64,000 nt of DNA, taken from the NCBI GenBank assembly GCA_009783445.1, contig WRFY01000125.1:1-64000 (forward strand). Reading direction: 5' to 3'. This DNA is from Candidatus Azobacteroides sp. (GTDB lineage Bacteria > Bacteroidota > Bacteroidia > Bacteroidales > Azobacteroidaceae). Below, in pieces: positions 34,428-41,878 of this stretch; the stretch's first letter is position 1; the number at the start of each line of letters is the position of its first letter. Below the pieces are notes generated by a model. It saw only the letters and a list, made by a program, of their open reading frames with translations, did not search any database and was not told the origin of the DNA. The translations under genes were made by a program, and so were the position numbers.

Positions 34428-35204
34428 TTAATCCATTCCCATTTTTTCCATTAATTTTTTTACCGCTTCTTCCGGACTGTTGGTTTCTACCAATAAACTG
34501 ATAAATTGGCTGCCGATAATGGCTCCAGCTGCATTTTCAAAAGCTGCCGCAAGCGTTTCCTTGTTGGAAATTCCAAAACCAATCAAACGCGGATTCCGCA
34601 AATTCATGTGGTTGATACGTCGAAAATAAGCTTGCTTTGTTTCGTCAAAAGTATTTTGCGCGCCGGTGATTGCCGCCGAGGAAACCATATAAATGAAACC
34701 ATCGGTATGCGTATCTATCTGGCGTATGCGTTCTTCAGATGTTTCAGGCGTAATCAACAAAATCATTTTCAAATCGTATAAATCGGCAACAGGTTTATAT
34801 TCCATCAAATAATCTCTGAAAGGCAAATCCGGAATAATCATTCCAGAAATACCCGTTCGTTGACAATCTTTGCAGAAATTTTCAAAACCATATTGCATGA
34901 CCGGATTCAAATATCCCATCCAAATCAGAGGAATATGAATTTCATTCTGAGCGGATTCTAACTGGGAAAAAAGAATTTTCAGGCTCATGCCGTTGCGAAG
35001 GGCAGAAGCGCTGCTTTTTTGAATAACCGGCCCATCGGCCATCGGATCGGAGAATGGCATTCCAACTTCAATCAAATCGACTCCTTTTTCCTGCAATTCT
35101 TTGATAATCTGAACGGTATCATTCAATTGAGGAAATCCTGCCGTAAAATAAACCGAAAGAATGCCTCTGGTCTTACGTTGAAATAAAGCATTTATTTTGT
35201 TCAT
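34428..35204 (-). CDS. trpA: Tryptophan synthase alpha subunit
   Basis: [30 protein letters not shown]. Confidence 0.96.
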
Positions 35205-35225: not shown

Positions 35226-35909
35226 CTATGATCTATTTTTCTTCCATTTTTCGTTTTCTAAAGGAACCTCGCCGACAGGCAATTTATTAGCCTGAATAAA
35301 AGGCAAAAGAAAGTCTTGTATCCGGCTAATATCTTTCAAACCGGGTGAAATTTCAAACCGGCTATTCAAATCAACCGCATACAACTGAGGAATATTGCAT
35401 TGCCGGATGATTTCAAAATCGTTCTTGTCGATGCCTCCGCTTAAAAAAAACGGTTTTTTACTTGAATAGGAGCTAAGAATTCGCCAATCGAATTTTTTTC
35501 CGGAGCCGCCATACAGAGGCGTTCGGGCGTCGAACAGGAAATAATCGCAAACGGTTTCATAGCAAGCGGTTTTTTCCAAATCTTTCCCCTTTTCAATTTG
35601 AAAAGCTTTAATGATTTTTATTCCTTTATCCTTCAATCTTTTGCATAAATCTGGCGATTCCGATCCATGCAATTGAAGCATTTGCAATCCGTATTGTTCC
35701 TTTTTTTTCCATATATTTTCTTCGTTTTCATCCACAAAAACGCCTACCTTTTGTACGTTGGACGGGACAATGCCTAACTCGCCTGCATTCAAGCTGCCGG
35801 CATATCGGGGCGACTTTTCATAAAAAATCAAGCCTATCAGGTCGATCGGAAGGCGCAACAAATCGTTTATATTGTCTGGATATTTCATCCCGCAAACTTT
35901 TATTTTCAT
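35226..35909 (-). CDS. trpF: Phosphoribosylanthranilate isomerase
   Basis: MKIKVCGMKYPDNI, LQLHGSESPDLC, PFFLSGGIDKNDF. Confidence 0.93.
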   Translation of the reverse strand: MKIKVCGMKYPDNINDLLRLPIDLIGLIFYEKSPRYAGSLNAGELGIVPSNVQKVGVFVDENEENIWKKKEQYGLQMLQLHGSESPDLCKRLKDKGIKIIKAFQIEKGKDLEKTACYETVCDYFLFDARTPLYGGSGKKFDWRILSSYSSKKPFFLSGGIDKNDFEIIRQCNIPQLYAVDLNSRFEISPGLKDISRIQDFLLPFIQANKLPVGEVPLENEKWKKNRS

Positions 35910-35934
35910 ATAGCGCACTCAGTTTTTTATTCAG

Positions 35935-36720
35935 TCAATCAAAATGGGTGATAAACTCCTGCAAGGCTTGTCCCGGATGATCTTTTTTCATAAAAATTTC
36001 CCCCATCAAAAAGCCGTTAAAACCTTCAACTAAGAGATGCTTTATCGTTGCAGGATCAGAAAGTCCGCTTTCCGAAATTTTGAAATATTCATCCGGTATT
36101 GGATGCGCCAAATCGAGACTGCATTGAACATCTGTATCGAATGTCTTCAAATTCCGGTTATTAATTCCCACTACATCCACTAAAGGCTGGATATAATCCA
36201 ATTCGTCGCGGTTGTGAATTTCCAACAAAACTTCCATATCTAATTCATGAGCAATCGCAGAAAATTGCAAAGATTCTTCCTTTGTCAAACAGGCTGCAAT
36301 CAATAAAACAACGTCTGCGCCCAAAACTTTGGACTGGTATATCTGGTAAGCATCCACAATAAAATCTTTCCGCAAAATGGGTATTTTCGTAACCGCTTTT
36401 CGCGCTTTTTTGAAATCGGAAAAAGAACCGCCAAAAAACGATTCGTCGGTCAAAACAGAAATCGCCGCAGCGCCTGCATCTTCATACTCTTTTACAATCG
36501 TTTCCACACAAGCGTTGGGATGTATCCAGCCCTTGGACGGTGACCGACGTTTGAATTCGGCTACAATACCCGGCGGCGAATCGGCCAACGACTGCCGAAA
36601 CGAAATTTTTTCGTGCGCCCAAACATGCAGCAAATTTCTCAGATGCGAAAGAGAAACGGCATCCTTTTGCCGAGCTACTTCCAAGCGTTTGCGAGCGCAA
36701 ATGGTTTCAAGAATGTTCAT
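35935..36720 (-). CDS. trpC: Indole-3-glycerol-phosphate synthase
   Basis: VAEFKRRSPSKGWI, ISVLTDESFFGGSFSDF, ILRKDFIVDAYQIYQSKVLGADVVLLIAA. Confidence 0.96.
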   Translation of the reverse strand: MNILETICARKRLEVARQKDAVSLSHLRNLLHVWAHEKISFRQSLADSPPGIVAEFKRRSPSKGWIHPNACVETIVKEYEDAGAAAISVLTDESFFGGSFSDFKKARKAVTKIPILRKDFIVDAYQIYQSKVLGADVVLLIAACLTKEESLQFSAIAHELDMEVLLEIHNRDELDYIQPLVDVVGINNRNLKTFDTDVQCSLDLAHPIPDEYFKISESGLSDPATIKHLLVEGFNGFLMGEIFMKKDHPGQALQEFITHFD

Positions 36721-36727
36721 CTGTTTA

Positions 36728-37741
36728 TCAACTGTTTAATTCTAAAAATCGCTCCCATGTTTTTCTCGCTTTTCCAGATTCCAGCGAATCCCGCGCTATT
36801 TCGATGCAAGTTTGCATATCCAATTGAGGCTCAATTGTTTGAATAGCTACCGCCGAATTGATCAACACAACGTTTTTTCGGGCTTCCGTCGTTTCGTTAT
36901 GGATCACTTCATCCAATATCCGGGCGGCTTTTGGAGGCGTATCTCCACCATACAATTCAAGCGGATCTATCTTCTGAAAACCCAATTGTTCGGGCGTATA
37001 CATATTTTCCTCGTAATTGCGAATGATTTTGAAAGCGCTGGTCAATGATATTTCATCATAACCATCGAGACTGTGGACAATCGCAAATTCATTGCCGCTT
37101 TCCTGGTAAATATAATTATACAAACGCGCCATTTTCAAATCATAAACTCCCAAAACCTGCCGTTTGGGCAGCACGGGATTCACAATAGGCCCCAAAATAT
37201 TAAAAAATGTTCTAACAGCCAGTGATTTACGTACAGGAGCAACAATTTTCAAAGCCGGATTGAACAATGGGGCATGAAGATAGGCAAAATGAGTTTCGTC
37301 CAATGATTTTTTGTGTAAATTTATATCTTTGGAAAATTTCACTCCGTGTTCTTCCATCACATTCGACGCTCCGCTCACGGAAGTCGCCCCATAGTTTCCG
37401 TGTTTCACTACTTCGTATCCGGCCCCTGCGGCGACTAAACAGGCGGCTGTCGAAATATTGAACGTATTTTTTCCGTCGCCTCCGGTGCCTACAATATCAA
37501 TTGGATTATAATCTCTTAATTCGTCCATGTTTACGCGCATTTCCAATAATGCCTCGCGAAAGCCGAGAATCTCGTCCACACTGACGCTCCGCATGAAATA
37601 AACTGTGATAAAGGCCGCAATCTGACTTTCGTTGTATCGGCCTTCCGCCATATTCGTCAAAATAGTCTTCGCTTCGTCGCGCGTCAAGTATTGATGTTCA
37701 AACAAACCATTCAATACCTCCGAAAATGTTTTTTGTGTCAT
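36728..37741 (-). CDS. trpD: Anthranilate phosphoribosyltransferase
   Basis: DIVGTGGDGKNTFNISTAACLVAAGAGYEVVKHGNYGATS. Confidence 0.96.
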   Translation of the reverse strand: MTQKTFSEVLNGLFEHQYLTRDEAKTILTNMAEGRYNESQIAAFITVYFMRSVSVDEILGFREALLEMRVNMDELRDYNPIDIVGTGGDGKNTFNISTAACLVAAGAGYEVVKHGNYGATSVSGASNVMEEHGVKFSKDINLHKKSLDETHFAYLHAPLFNPALKIVAPVRKSLAVRTFFNILGPIVNPVLPKRQVLGVYDLKMARLYNYIYQESGNEFAIVHSLDGYDEISLTSAFKIIRNYEENMYTPEQLGFQKIDPLELYGGDTPPKAARILDEVIHNETTEARKNVVLINSAVAIQTIEPQLDMQTCIEIARDSLESGKARKTWERFLELNS

Positions 37742-37752
37742 CTTTTTAACTA

Positions 37753-38319
37753 TTAACCATTCAAAAATCGAGCAACAATTTCTTTACCATAAGGCGTCAA
37801 TATCGATTCGGGATGAAATTGCAGACCGTGTACCTCCCATTTTTTGTGCTTCAAGGCCATAATTTGTCCCTTTTCGTCTGTTGCCGTAACGGTCAATTCC
37901 GCCGGAAAATCCTCGTTGCTGACCAACCATGAATGGTATCTCCCTGCCTCAAAACTTTCGGGCAAACCGTCGAAAATCCGATGAGGAGCAATAACTTTGA
38001 CCGGAGTAGCTACTCCGTGGTATACATCTTCCATGTTAATCAACTTCCCTCCGAAAGCTTCTGCAATGGCCTGATGTCCCAAACAAATGCCTAACAAACT
38101 TTTGGTCGGAGCAAATTGTCGGATCAATGGAAGCAACAAACCGGCTTCGCTCGGAATTCCCGGTCCGGGCGACAAAATGATCTTGTCGAACTTTTCGATT
38201 TCTTCCAAGCGGATTTTATCATTTCGGTGGACTTCCACCTCCTTGTATCCCAATTCTTTCACTAAGTGTGCTATATTGTAGGTAAAAGAATCGTAATTAT
38301 CAAAAATCAATATTTTCAT
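37753..38319 (-). CDS. trpG: Anthranilate synthase component II (glutamine amidotransferase)
   Basis: MKILIFDNYDSFTYN, ILSPGPGIPSEAG, LGICLGHQAIAEAFGG. Confidence 0.95.
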   Translation of the reverse strand: MKILIFDNYDSFTYNIAHLVKELGYKEVEVHRNDKIRLEEIEKFDKIILSPGPGIPSEAGLLLPLIRQFAPTKSLLGICLGHQAIAEAFGGKLINMEDVYHGVATPVKVIAPHRIFDGLPESFEAGRYHSWLVSNEDFPAELTVTATDEKGQIMALKHKKWEVHGLQFHPESILTPYGKEIVARFLNG

Positions 38320-38333
38320 GTGTTTCGCAAACT

Positions 38334-39746
38334 TCAATTGATTATTTTTTCCGCAGCGTCAATCGCTTTCTTCAAAGCGCCCAATTTATTATTTACTTCT
38401 TGCAGTTCGGATGCTTCCTGAGAACGGGAAACGATTCCGGCTCCCGCCTGGTAGTACAATACATTATTTTTGCTGAGAAAGGAACGAATCGTGATGGCTT
38501 GATTCAAATCGCCGTTTAATCCAACGTAACCGATCGATCCTCCATAAGCGCCCCTGTTGTAAGGTTCTATCTCGCGAATCAATTCCATAGCGCGTACTTT
38601 CGGCGCTCCCGAAAGAGTACCTGCCGGAAAAGTATCCGCATAAATCTGAAGCGTATTGCTTCCCTCTTTCACTTCGCCTACAACCCTCGAAACTAAGTGA
38701 ATGACATGCGAATAATATTGCACCTCTTTGTAAAAATCTACATGGACATTTTCTGCATTTTTACTTAAATCGTTTCGCGCCAAATCGACCAGCATCACAT
38801 GTTCGGCATTTTCTTTGGGATCATTCAATAAATCTTGAGCCAGTTCTTTATCTTTTTCGTCGTCGCCCGTCCGTTGAAAAGTTCCAGCAATGGGATCGAT
38901 ATACGCCCGTTTTCCGGAAATCCGGCAATGCGTTTCAGGACTTGAACCAAAAATACGAAAAGAACCAAAATCAAAATAAAACAGATAAGGAGACGGATTG
39001 ATGGAACGTAAAGCACGATATACTTTGAAATCGTCGCCCGAAAAGGCTTGCGAAAAACAGCGGGACAAAACAATTTGAAAAACGTCGCCTCGTTTGCAGT
39101 GTTGAATTCCCTGCCTCACCATGGAGCGGTACGTTTCGTCGCTGACAAGCGATTTTTCTTCTCCTTTCGTAGAAAAATTGTAAGAAGCATAATTTCGATT
39201 GTTCAAAATAGCCAGTACTTCATCCATTCGGCTGGCTTCTTCTTCCATCGCATTTTCTATAATGGTCATTTCATTTTTAAACTGATTGACCACAATAATG
39301 TAGCGGTAAAAAATGTAAACCATATCAGGAATCATACTTCCTTCAAAATTACTTTTACCCGGGACAATATCTTCGAAATATTGAACAGCGTCGTAAGCTG
39401 TATAACCGAAAAAACCATTGTAAGTAGTCGTATTCCCATCGTTTTTTCTTTCAAAAGAACGAATAAACTGGTTCAACAACAAGGGAATCGATTCTCCTTT
39501 TTCCAATCTTCTTTCTTTCCTGCTTTTATCAGGATACTCCATGCAGATATTTCCGTCTTTCACTTCAAAGCGAGCCATCGAATTCAAACCGATAAACGAA
39601 ACGGAATTTTCGTTTCCATGGAAATCGGAACTTTCCAACAACACCGATTCAGGAAAAACATCCCTCACTTTCAAATAAATGCCGACAGGCGTTTGCAAAT
39701 CCGCCAAAACCGTTTTGCATTGCGTACAAATCGTCACTTTCTTCAT
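38334..39746 (-). CDS. trpE: Anthranilate synthase component I
   Basis: DVFQIVLSRCFSQAF, RIFGSSPETH, TFPAGTLSGAPKVRAMELI; start refined to MKKVTIC. Confidence 0.95.
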   Translation of the reverse strand: MKKVTICTQCKTVLADLQTPVGIYLKVRDVFPESVLLESSDFHGNENSVSFIGLNSMARFEVKDGNICMEYPDKSRKERRLEKGESIPLLLNQFIRSFERKNDGNTTTYNGFFGYTAYDAVQYFEDIVPGKSNFEGSMIPDMVYIFYRYIIVVNQFKNEMTIIENAMEEEASRMDEVLAILNNRNYASYNFSTKGEEKSLVSDETYRSMVRQGIQHCKRGDVFQIVLSRCFSQAFSGDDFKVYRALRSINPSPYLFYFDFGSFRIFGSSPETHCRISGKRAYIDPIAGTFQRTGDDEKDKELAQDLLNDPKENAEHVMLVDLARNDLSKNAENVHVDFYKEVQYYSHVIHLVSRVVGEVKEGSNTLQIYADTFPAGTLSGAPKVRAMELIREIEPYNRGAYGGSIGYVGLNGDLNQAITIRSFLSKNNVLYYQAGAGIVSRSQEASELQEVNNKLGALKKAIDAAEKIIN

Positions 39747-39753
39747 ACCCTCG

Positions 39754-40953
39754 TTACTGATCTTTCTCATTACTGATTTTCTGATTCACATACGTTTCCA
39801 TATCCTTATCCCCCCTACCCGACAAGCACAAAACAACCACCTGATCTGGAGCGAATTTTTTTCTTTTGAAAACGGCTAAAGCATGAGCCGATTCCAACGC
39901 GGGAATAATTCCTTCCAAACGAGTCAATTCCATAGCCGCCTGCAAAGCTTCGTCGTCGTCGATCGCCAACACTTCGGATCGACCCTGCTTAGCCATGTTC
40001 GCATGCATAGGTCCGATTCCCGGATAATCCAATCCCGCCGAAATAGAATACGGTTCTTCAATCTGTCCATCAGGCGTTTGCATCAACAAGGTTTTGGCTC
40101 CATGAATAATTCCCACGCTGCCCAAGTGAATCGTAGCCGCCGATTGTCCCGAATGTATTCCTTTGCCCCCAGCTTCTGCTAAAATAATTTTCACTTGTGG
40201 ATTATCAATGTATTCGTACATGGCGCCTCCCGCATTGCTCCCTCCGCCTACGCAAGCGATCAGATAATCGGGATAGTCTCGTCCTTCTTTCCCCATCAAC
40301 TGTTTCTTTATCTCTTTACTGATAATAGATTGCAGACGTACCACCAAATCAGGATAAGGATGAGGCCCTACGGTAGATCCAATGATATAATGTGTATCGG
40401 CCGGATGGCAGCACCAATCGCGAATGGCTTCATTGGTGGCGTCTTTCAATGTGCGGTTTCCGCTATCGACCGAAACAACTTGAGCGCCAAGCATTTCCAT
40501 TTTCTGTACATTCAATTTTTGGCGTTCTACATCAGTTCTACCCATGTAGACGACGCATTCCATATTCATCAACGCACAAACCGTTGCGGTTGCTACTCCG
40601 TGCTGTCCGGCGCCAGTCTCAGCAATTATTCGGGTTTTGCCCATCCTCCGCGCCAATAGAATTTGACCTACCGTATTGTTGATTTTATGCGCTCCCGTAT
40701 GATTCAAATCCTCTCGCTTCAAGTAGATACGGCATCCGTATCGTTGCGATAAGCGTCCGGCCAGATACAGCGGCGTAGGACGGCCCACATAATCGGTCAA
40801 TAGGGCATGGTATTCCTGCTGAAATTCAGGATCATCGAGAATCTTCTGATAATTGTTTCGCAAAGATTCTACATTGGAATAGAGAATTTCTGGAATATAG
40901 GCGCCGCCAAAATCCCCATAGTATCCTTCTTCGTTGACATAAAAACTTTTCAT
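39754..40953 (-). CDS. trpB: Tryptophan synthase beta subunit
   Basis: YLKREDLNHTGAHKINN, AETGAGQHGVATA, CVGGGSNAGGAMYEY. Confidence 0.97.
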   Translation of the reverse strand: MKSFYVNEEGYYGDFGGAYIPEILYSNVESLRNNYQKILDDPEFQQEYHALLTDYVGRPTPLYLAGRLSQRYGCRIYLKREDLNHTGAHKINNTVGQILLARRMGKTRIIAETGAGQHGVATATVCALMNMECVVYMGRTDVERQKLNVQKMEMLGAQVVSVDSGNRTLKDATNEAIRDWCCHPADTHYIIGSTVGPHPYPDLVVRLQSIISKEIKKQLMGKEGRDYPDYLIACVGGGSNAGGAMYEYIDNPQVKIILAEAGGKGIHSGQSAATIHLGSVGIIHGAKTLLMQTPDGQIEEPYSISAGLDYPGIGPMHANMAKQGRSEVLAIDDDEALQAAMELTRLEGIIPALESAHALAVFKRKKFAPDQVVVLCLSGRGDKDMETYVNQKISNEKDQ

Positions 40954-40992
40954 TGATTCATTTGATTGTTTTAACGTGCTATCTCACAAGAA

Positions 40993-41021
40993 AAGGTCTG
41001 TTGTGAGTTACAACAGACCTT
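40993..41021 (-). terminator. Attenuator/terminator-like hairpin in the trp leader
   Basis: Minus strand AAGGTCTGTTGT-AACTC-ACAACAGACCTT (12-bp perfect stem) followed by TTCTTGT, 40 nt before trpB. Confidence 0.65.
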
Positions 41022-41066
41022 CTCTCGTTTGTTTTTTAATGTTTTATTTTTTTAGCATTTATTTTT

Positions 41067-41156
41067 TTAACAACAAAATAGAGCAGGAAGCTTCACCCCT
41101 TCTTTCTGGAAGAACAAGCGGCGCCACCAACCTTTATTGTTATCAATTTGTATCAT
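41067..41156 (-). CDS. trpL: trp operon leader peptide (29 aa: MIQIDNNKGWWRRLFFQKEGVKLPALFCC)
   Basis: ORF with tandem Trp codons (TGG TGG), downstream of a good promoter and upstream of a terminator-like hairpin and trpB; absent from supplied ORF track because of its length. Confidence 0.8.
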   Translation of the reverse strand: MIQIDNNKGWWRRLFFQKEGVKLPALFCC

Positions 41157-41185
41157 TCTCTTTCTTTTTATTTGGAATATGGCCA

Positions 41186-41216
41186 CAAAGATATAAACTT
41201 ATTTTTAAATCGCAAA
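41186..41216 (-). promoter_or_regulatory. trp operon promoter
   Basis: Minus strand TTTG-N19-TATCTTTG, exact match to the Bacteroidota primary sigma pattern, about 30 nt before the leader ORF. Confidence 0.75.
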
Positions 41217-41277: not shown

Positions 41278-41508
41278 TTAAAATGTTTTTTCTACTGTTT
41301 CACCCCATTCATCATCAATGGTAATGGGCAAAGTAGATGATGACTTACCATTATCCGCTTGAGACAGATTGTCAAATAATTTTCCTGTGTACCGGAACAT
41401 TTTGTTTTTCTCAATATCGACTTGGCTGATTGTTTTCGTGGCAACGATGGCATTTATTAAAAAAGGTGCGTTTAATTTGCCAAGCGAATGCTTCTTCTTG
41501 GAAATCAA
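41278..41508 (-). CDS. Orphan small ORF of unknown function, possible gene remnant
   Basis: 76 codons from a TTG start, hydrophilic, no recognised family; lies in an otherwise AT-rich non-coding stretch. Confidence 0.25.
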   Translation of the reverse strand: MISKKKHSLGKLNAPFLINAIVATKTISQVDIEKNKMFRYTGKLFDNLSQADNGKSSSTLPITIDDEWGETVEKTF

Positions 41509-41878
41509 GCCGATAAAACCTTTTTTTCACCCCATTTCAAAGGTTTAGATGGGTTAGGTAATAGTAATGAAACAAGGTGAAAAATAAGGTTCAAAAGTAC
41601 AAGATTTTTTATCTCCATGCAGAATTACTCTGCGTCCTGATTGAGTTATAATAATTCCACAACTTTTTTTTGACATTCAACAGATACGATTCGCAATTAC
41701 TCACAAAAATAATAGGCTCGACTTTTCAAAAAATAAACTTCTGTCAAAAATAGCATATATTTTTCTAAATAAAAAGTAAGTTTGTCGAAAATTTATTCTA
41801 CAATTGTCAAAACAGTGTAAATTAATCGATATAGGTCTGAAAATGGAAAAAATAAGTTCATTTCAACTGCTGAAATTT

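Follow-up and report, generated by a model that had tools for sequence, protein, structure and literature searches.

How does the tryptophan biosynthesis operon of Candidatus Azobacteroides sp. (assembly GCA_009783445.1) respond to its end product? We analyzed positions 1 to 64,000 of contig WRFY01000125.1, a stretch of 64,000 nucleotides referred to as the window, for which a ribosome-mediated attenuation leader in front of trpB had been proposed from the DNA letters. Seven minus-strand genes have trpB, E, G, D, C, F and A, in this order, as their best model matches, and all of them are open: trpB (39754-40953; NCBIfam TIGR00263, 576 bits), trpE (38334-39770; TIGR00564 as the best equivalog, at 414 bits short of its cut-off of 518), trpG (37753-38337; TIGR00566, 177 bits), trpD (36728-37741; TIGR01245, 288 bits), trpC (35935-36720; NF001377, 283 bits), trpF (35226-35918; phosphoribosylanthranilate isomerase models, the best at 162 bits, below the cut-offs) and trpA (34428-35204; TIGR00262, 214 bits). 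A second, distant TrpB-like gene with 34% identity, likely a TrpB2-type paralogue, is located outside the window at G000:C98:3156-4199.

Upstream of trpB we read on the same strand a Bacteroidetes-type promoter (41216-41186), consisting of a TTTG -33 element (41213-41216) and, after a spacer of 19 nt, the -7 element TATCTTTG (41186-41193). The latter conforms to TAnnTTTG, the Bacteroides sigma consensus (PMC7366714), and would place the transcript start near 41180. In 68 of 70 related leaders a TAnnTTTG box lies at most 90 nt from the leader ATG, as compared with 5.6% in shuffled sequence, and TTTG or TTG is found at matching spacing beside it in 66. Some 600 bases 5' of the promoter (41278-41878, minus strand) contain short ORFs only (up to 76 amino acids, the longest ending at 41278) and might represent a decayed gene. 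The leader ORF MIQIDNNKGWWRRLFFQKEGVKLPALFCC runs from an ATG at 41156 to a TAA at 41067 (29 codons plus UAA), has WW(W)R homologues in 70 relatives, and is recovered by R1, a covariance model trained on the leaders of 16 relatives that share its subtype, with the window left out. Its codons 10 and 11 are the tandem UGG UGG pair (41129-41124) that would act as sensor; both are invariant in a 16-sequence genus alignment, and a third Trp codon is present in most sequences. The promoter and the 29-residue WW leader peptide of the original prediction are thus both present.

The leader ORF is followed by an intrinsic-terminator-like hairpin. Its perfect 12-bp core, AAGGTCTGTTGT-AACTC-ACAACAGACCTT (41021-40993), carries an AACUC loop (41009-41005), ends 39 nt before the trpB ATG (40953), and is lengthened in the minimum-energy fold to 19 pairs (41028-40986). 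The U-tract that follows, UUUUCUUGU, is as weak as had been noted from the letters. In the genus alignment the hairpin covaries, with four pairs altered on both sides; an automatic terminator scan flagged only the opposite strand here and not the hairpin's own. The 198-nt leader transcript folds with -56.6 kcal/mol (z = -6.5 against dinucleotide shuffles, none of 200 as good), and the fold of the leader part alone is matched by 2 of 300 shuffles. In the minimum-energy fold a 10-bp protector stem is formed by strand 1, UUGAUAACAA (41137-41146), located just 5' of the Trp codons, and strand 2, UUGUUGUUAA (41067-41076), which includes the leader stop codon; 34 of 2000 shuffles reach this 1:2 duplex energy. 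The hairpin might in principle serve only to terminate transcription from the gene upstream, with tryptophan being sensed by a TrpR repressor or a T-box instead. However, the window's genome gave no match to TrpR (PF01371) and none to the T-box (RF00230) at E <= 0.001, while positive controls were detected in both searches, and the leader ORF and promoter separate the hairpin from the upstream region and share its conservation. We consider this explanation highly improbable.

We next turned to trpB loci gathered from 60 related genomes and 80 named contigs, the nearest named relatives being termite-gut Dysgonomonadaceae and Candidatus Symbiothrix. With the window excluded, 70 of 93 distinct upstream regions have, before trpB, a short WW(W) ORF and then a terminator hairpin, so that the alignment suggested earlier for tandem TGG codons does return a homologous leader. 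Two of the 70 deviate at the sensor, one with a single Trp codon and one with WRW. Interrupted or single Trp codons (LWR, WRWR) were seen in L082, L095, L119 and L120, which keep the downstream pairing segment S described below and the terminator. In same-genus genomes in which the operon is split differently, the leader precedes trpE (L111, L112, L113, L117 and L118) or trpD (L114), and it thus tracks the head of the operon rather than trpB. One genome, G021, has two copies, which precede trpB (C57) and trpE (C150). Many same-genus genomes (L005, L007, L008, L009, L010, L012, L022 and others) have a trpB with no recognizable leader directly upstream. A tRNA-like sequence replaces the leader at trpB in L022 and in G004 (L005); the latter genome has a leader before trpE at another place. 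In a Parabacteroides locus (L086) the leader lies about 330 nt 5' of trpB, with an array of CTAAGGCTTAG-like repeats in between.

Does this leader belong to a known family? Weinberg et al. (2010, PMC2864571) list Bacteroid-trp among likely cis-regulatory RNAs; the element precedes the trp operon of F. psychrophilum, consistent with attenuation (PMC6414381), and amino-acid operons of that species show clues of leader-peptide attenuation (PMC9723704). The original prediction had named this family. The window leader (41176-41054) aligns across the whole Bacteroid-trp model (RF01692) but reaches 27.2 bits where the cut-off is 49, identically in a search of the whole genome, and formal membership therefore does not follow. 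Only a tRNA passes an Rfam cut-off in the window, and the E. coli Trp_leader model (RF00513) scores 14.1 bits against a cut-off of 41. The Bacteroid-trp cut-off is also missed by most intact leaders of the genus: G020 (L004, 50 bits) is the sole genome above it among 41, and 11 of 198 order-level genomes pass. By R1, the window is the top match in its 2.7-Mb genome (68.9 bits, E 3.5e-10), and homology extends to leaders that do pass the Rfam cut-off. The second match is the antisense of the terminator hairpin alone, at 28 bits, which indicates that roughly 40 bits of the R1 score come from the leader part. R1 matches were found in 19 of the 41 genus genomes. Like Bacteroid-trp, the window has a short ORF with tandem Trp codons before a Bacteroidetes tryptophan operon (trpBEGDCFA), a hairpin over the Trp region and then a terminator. 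Judged by sequence, the leader is a homologue of the Bacteroid-trp leaders that has diverged to below the formal threshold: the kinship is borne out and the score-based assignment is not.

We investigated how the switch may operate in the relatives. In nearly all of them a segment S, located 23-30 nt past the first Trp codon and mostly holding the leader stop codon, is complementary to a segment P, which comprises the terminator loop and the start of the 3' arm, and not the 5' arm. Examples are GUCGUGAG:CUCACGAC, GUCGUAAG:CUUACGAC and GUGAGUU:AACUCAC, and further compensated types occur in a same-genus leader (AGGUGGA:UCCACCU, L121) and, within the order-wide set introduced below, in L132 (GUCGUGAAU:AUUCACGAC) and L149 (UCGUGAAA:UUUCACGA). 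Matched S:P complementarity is 17.4 as compared with 14.6 after permutation across leaders (sd 0.33, 0/5000, uncorrected for kinship). An order-wide set of 30 leaders, which overlaps the first set by a few genomes, gives 16.9 versus 14.4 (sd 0.46, 0/5000, likewise uncorrected for kinship); about 5 of the 30 have no clear S:P match, and its absence is thus not unique to the window. Among 61 distinct leaders, the 3'-terminal triplet of S and its partner read GAG:CTC in 32 and AAG:CTT in 21, and none has the mismatched GAG:CTT or AAG:CTC, indicating that UGA and UAA stops covary with the terminator. Shifting the partner of S by one to three bases lowers pairing from 85% to 25-44%. Shuffling within each leader preserves the base composition of what is a short region and so tests S:P energy weakly, with 24 of 71 leaders at <=5%; we regard the permutation across these sequences as decisive.

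S also pairs with R, the segment directly 3' of the Trp codons (matched 16.0, permuted 13.8, sd 0.31, 0/5000, again uncorrected for kinship). When the relatives were folded with the ribosome footprint masked, S:P pairs averaged 2.07 with no ribosome, 8.26 with a ribosome stalled at Trp and 0.12 with a ribosome at the stop codon. The Trp-stalled state has at least four S:P pairs in 68 of 70 leaders, and a subset of leaders shows 7.8 pairs as compared with 2.5 after shuffling.

The window departs from this scheme. At the aligned S position it has AAAGAAGGGGUGAA (41092-41105), reading GAA GGG GUG AAG where relatives of the same subtype typically have GAG UGA GUG AA(A/G) or GAG UGA GUU. Codon 20 (41099-41097) is thus GGG in place of the relatives' UGA stop, a change of two substitutions, and the ORF continues for ten codons past that position, which sets it apart from Bacteroid-trp leaders. 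The terminator retains the AACUC loop of the relatives, but the relatives' antiterminator, as defined by us and not by Rfam, is reduced to four S:P base pairs. The local hairpin of R (CGCUUGUUCUUC, 41109-41120) with S, which is kept in the relatives, scores 18 in the window, higher than in 57% of them. S is intact in L031, the nearest relative by TrpB identity; the comparison extended to species representatives, and the loss of S is thus seen in a single assembly.

Loss of S could have uncoupled the switch, leaving the operon mostly terminated or constitutively reduced regardless of tryptophan. The substitutions in a lineage whose neighbor L031 retains S would fit such a decay, as would the several genus members that have trpB and no leader. 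Yet the tandem Trp codons, the promoter, the R:S hairpin, the perfect terminator and all seven trp genes are intact, and both the leader fold and a stall-specific pairing described below go beyond shuffled sequence. We thus judge a decaying attenuator unlikely. Alternatively, S may still act on a shifted target, with AAGAAGGGGU (41104-41095) pairing to ACCUUUUCUU (40997-40988) at the base of the 3' arm and in the U-tract. This would provide ten contiguous pairs (-12.2 kcal/mol) at the homologous S position, but 31% of shuffles of the purine-rich S region do as well with the target trimmed at its 3' end, and the target emerges last during transcription, when the hairpin can already have formed. 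We rejected this pairing as a candidate and consider a shifted target improbable, more so than decay of the attenuator.

We favor a different pairing in the window, between region 2 (41072-41098) and region 3 (41005-41033), which comprises AACAAACGAGAGAAGG together with the remainder of the 5' arm and the loop of the terminator. The original prediction had found no obvious partner for this arm; the candidate 2:3 duplex (41098-41072 with 41033-41005) now provides one, with a predicted energy of -17.2 kcal/mol. Its plain duplex energy corresponds to p 0.038 or 0.008. Just before the 3' arm emerges, 2:3 pairs number 0 with no ribosome, about 14 with a ribosome stalled at W1/W2, and 0 with a ribosome at the stop codon, and the matching values for 1:2 are 17.3, 0 and 2.5. 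Over a wider region the Trp-stalled state has 19.5 expected 2:3 pairs as compared with a shuffle mean of 2.9, a value reached by 1 of 300 leader-side and 3 of 300 terminator-side shuffles. We predict this pairing post hoc, from a single sequence and without covariation support; in the relatives it does not exceed chance (5 of 70 at p <= 0.05). Another candidate, in which strand 2 mimics the terminator 5' arm (UUUGUUGU:ACAACAGA, -7.6 kcal/mol, p 0.028), was discarded, 2:4 pairs being 0 in all folded states. In equilibrium folds of every ribosome state the terminator prevails once its 3' arm has been transcribed, and antitermination, in the window as in the relatives, must thus be kinetic. We give the 2:3 pairing roughly even chances of operating in the genome.

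Promoter, WW leader ORF, terminator and homology can be read directly, and from them we infer the switching steps. Without translation, the 1:2 stem and the 3:4 terminator would form, and the operon would be off. When charged tRNA-Trp is scarce, a ribosome would stall at codons 10-11, cover strand 1 and open the leader hairpin, freeing 41098-41072 to pair with the terminator 5' arm and loop (41033-41005); this would delay or block the terminator and turn the operon on. When tryptophan is ample, the ribosome would reach the stop codon inside strand 2 and mask this strand, allowing the terminator to form and the operon to be switched off. In the relatives an equivalent switch may operate through S at the leader stop, whose partner would be the loop of the terminator plus its 3' arm. 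In E. coli, the trp leader uses a 1:2 protector, a 2:3 antiterminator and a 3:4 terminator together with a stall at two Trp codons. The window shares this logic and, as predicted, this topology, and differs in operon order and organism. The unusual switching geometry suspected earlier is borne out in part: in the relatives the pairing involves the loop and 3' arm, and the window has lost it. The 2:3 pairing predicted in its place is of the classical kind and is a further difference from Bacteroid-trp leaders.

The conserved WW(W) leader, promoter box and terminator across Bacteroidales, together with the top R1 match, make tryptophan-responsive attenuation of the window operon highly likely, in line with the original prediction. 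That the locus is a ribosome-mediated trpBEGDCFA attenuator, a diverged Bacteroid-trp homologue, appears probable to us. It is a more tentative proposal, for which we would give somewhat less than even odds, that the stop codon and terminator coevolve in Bacteroidales and that this lineage lost S and the stop and was rewired to an E. coli-like 2:3 pairing with its output unchanged.

Among the papers searched, we found no description of the S:P pairing and no experimental dissection of a Bacteroides trp leader. The leader type is already known in the phylum; the copy in the window has lost the antiterminator of its relatives and seems to use a different pairing. That the relatives have no counterpart to the terminator 5' arm is explained by their antiterminator pairing with the loop plus 3' arm instead. 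This leader is found throughout the phylum and has figured as a predicted cis-regulatory RNA since 2010; our analysis proposes a switching mechanism for it that is open to testing, and presents a natural case in which the antiterminator has apparently been exchanged while the sensor and the terminator were retained.
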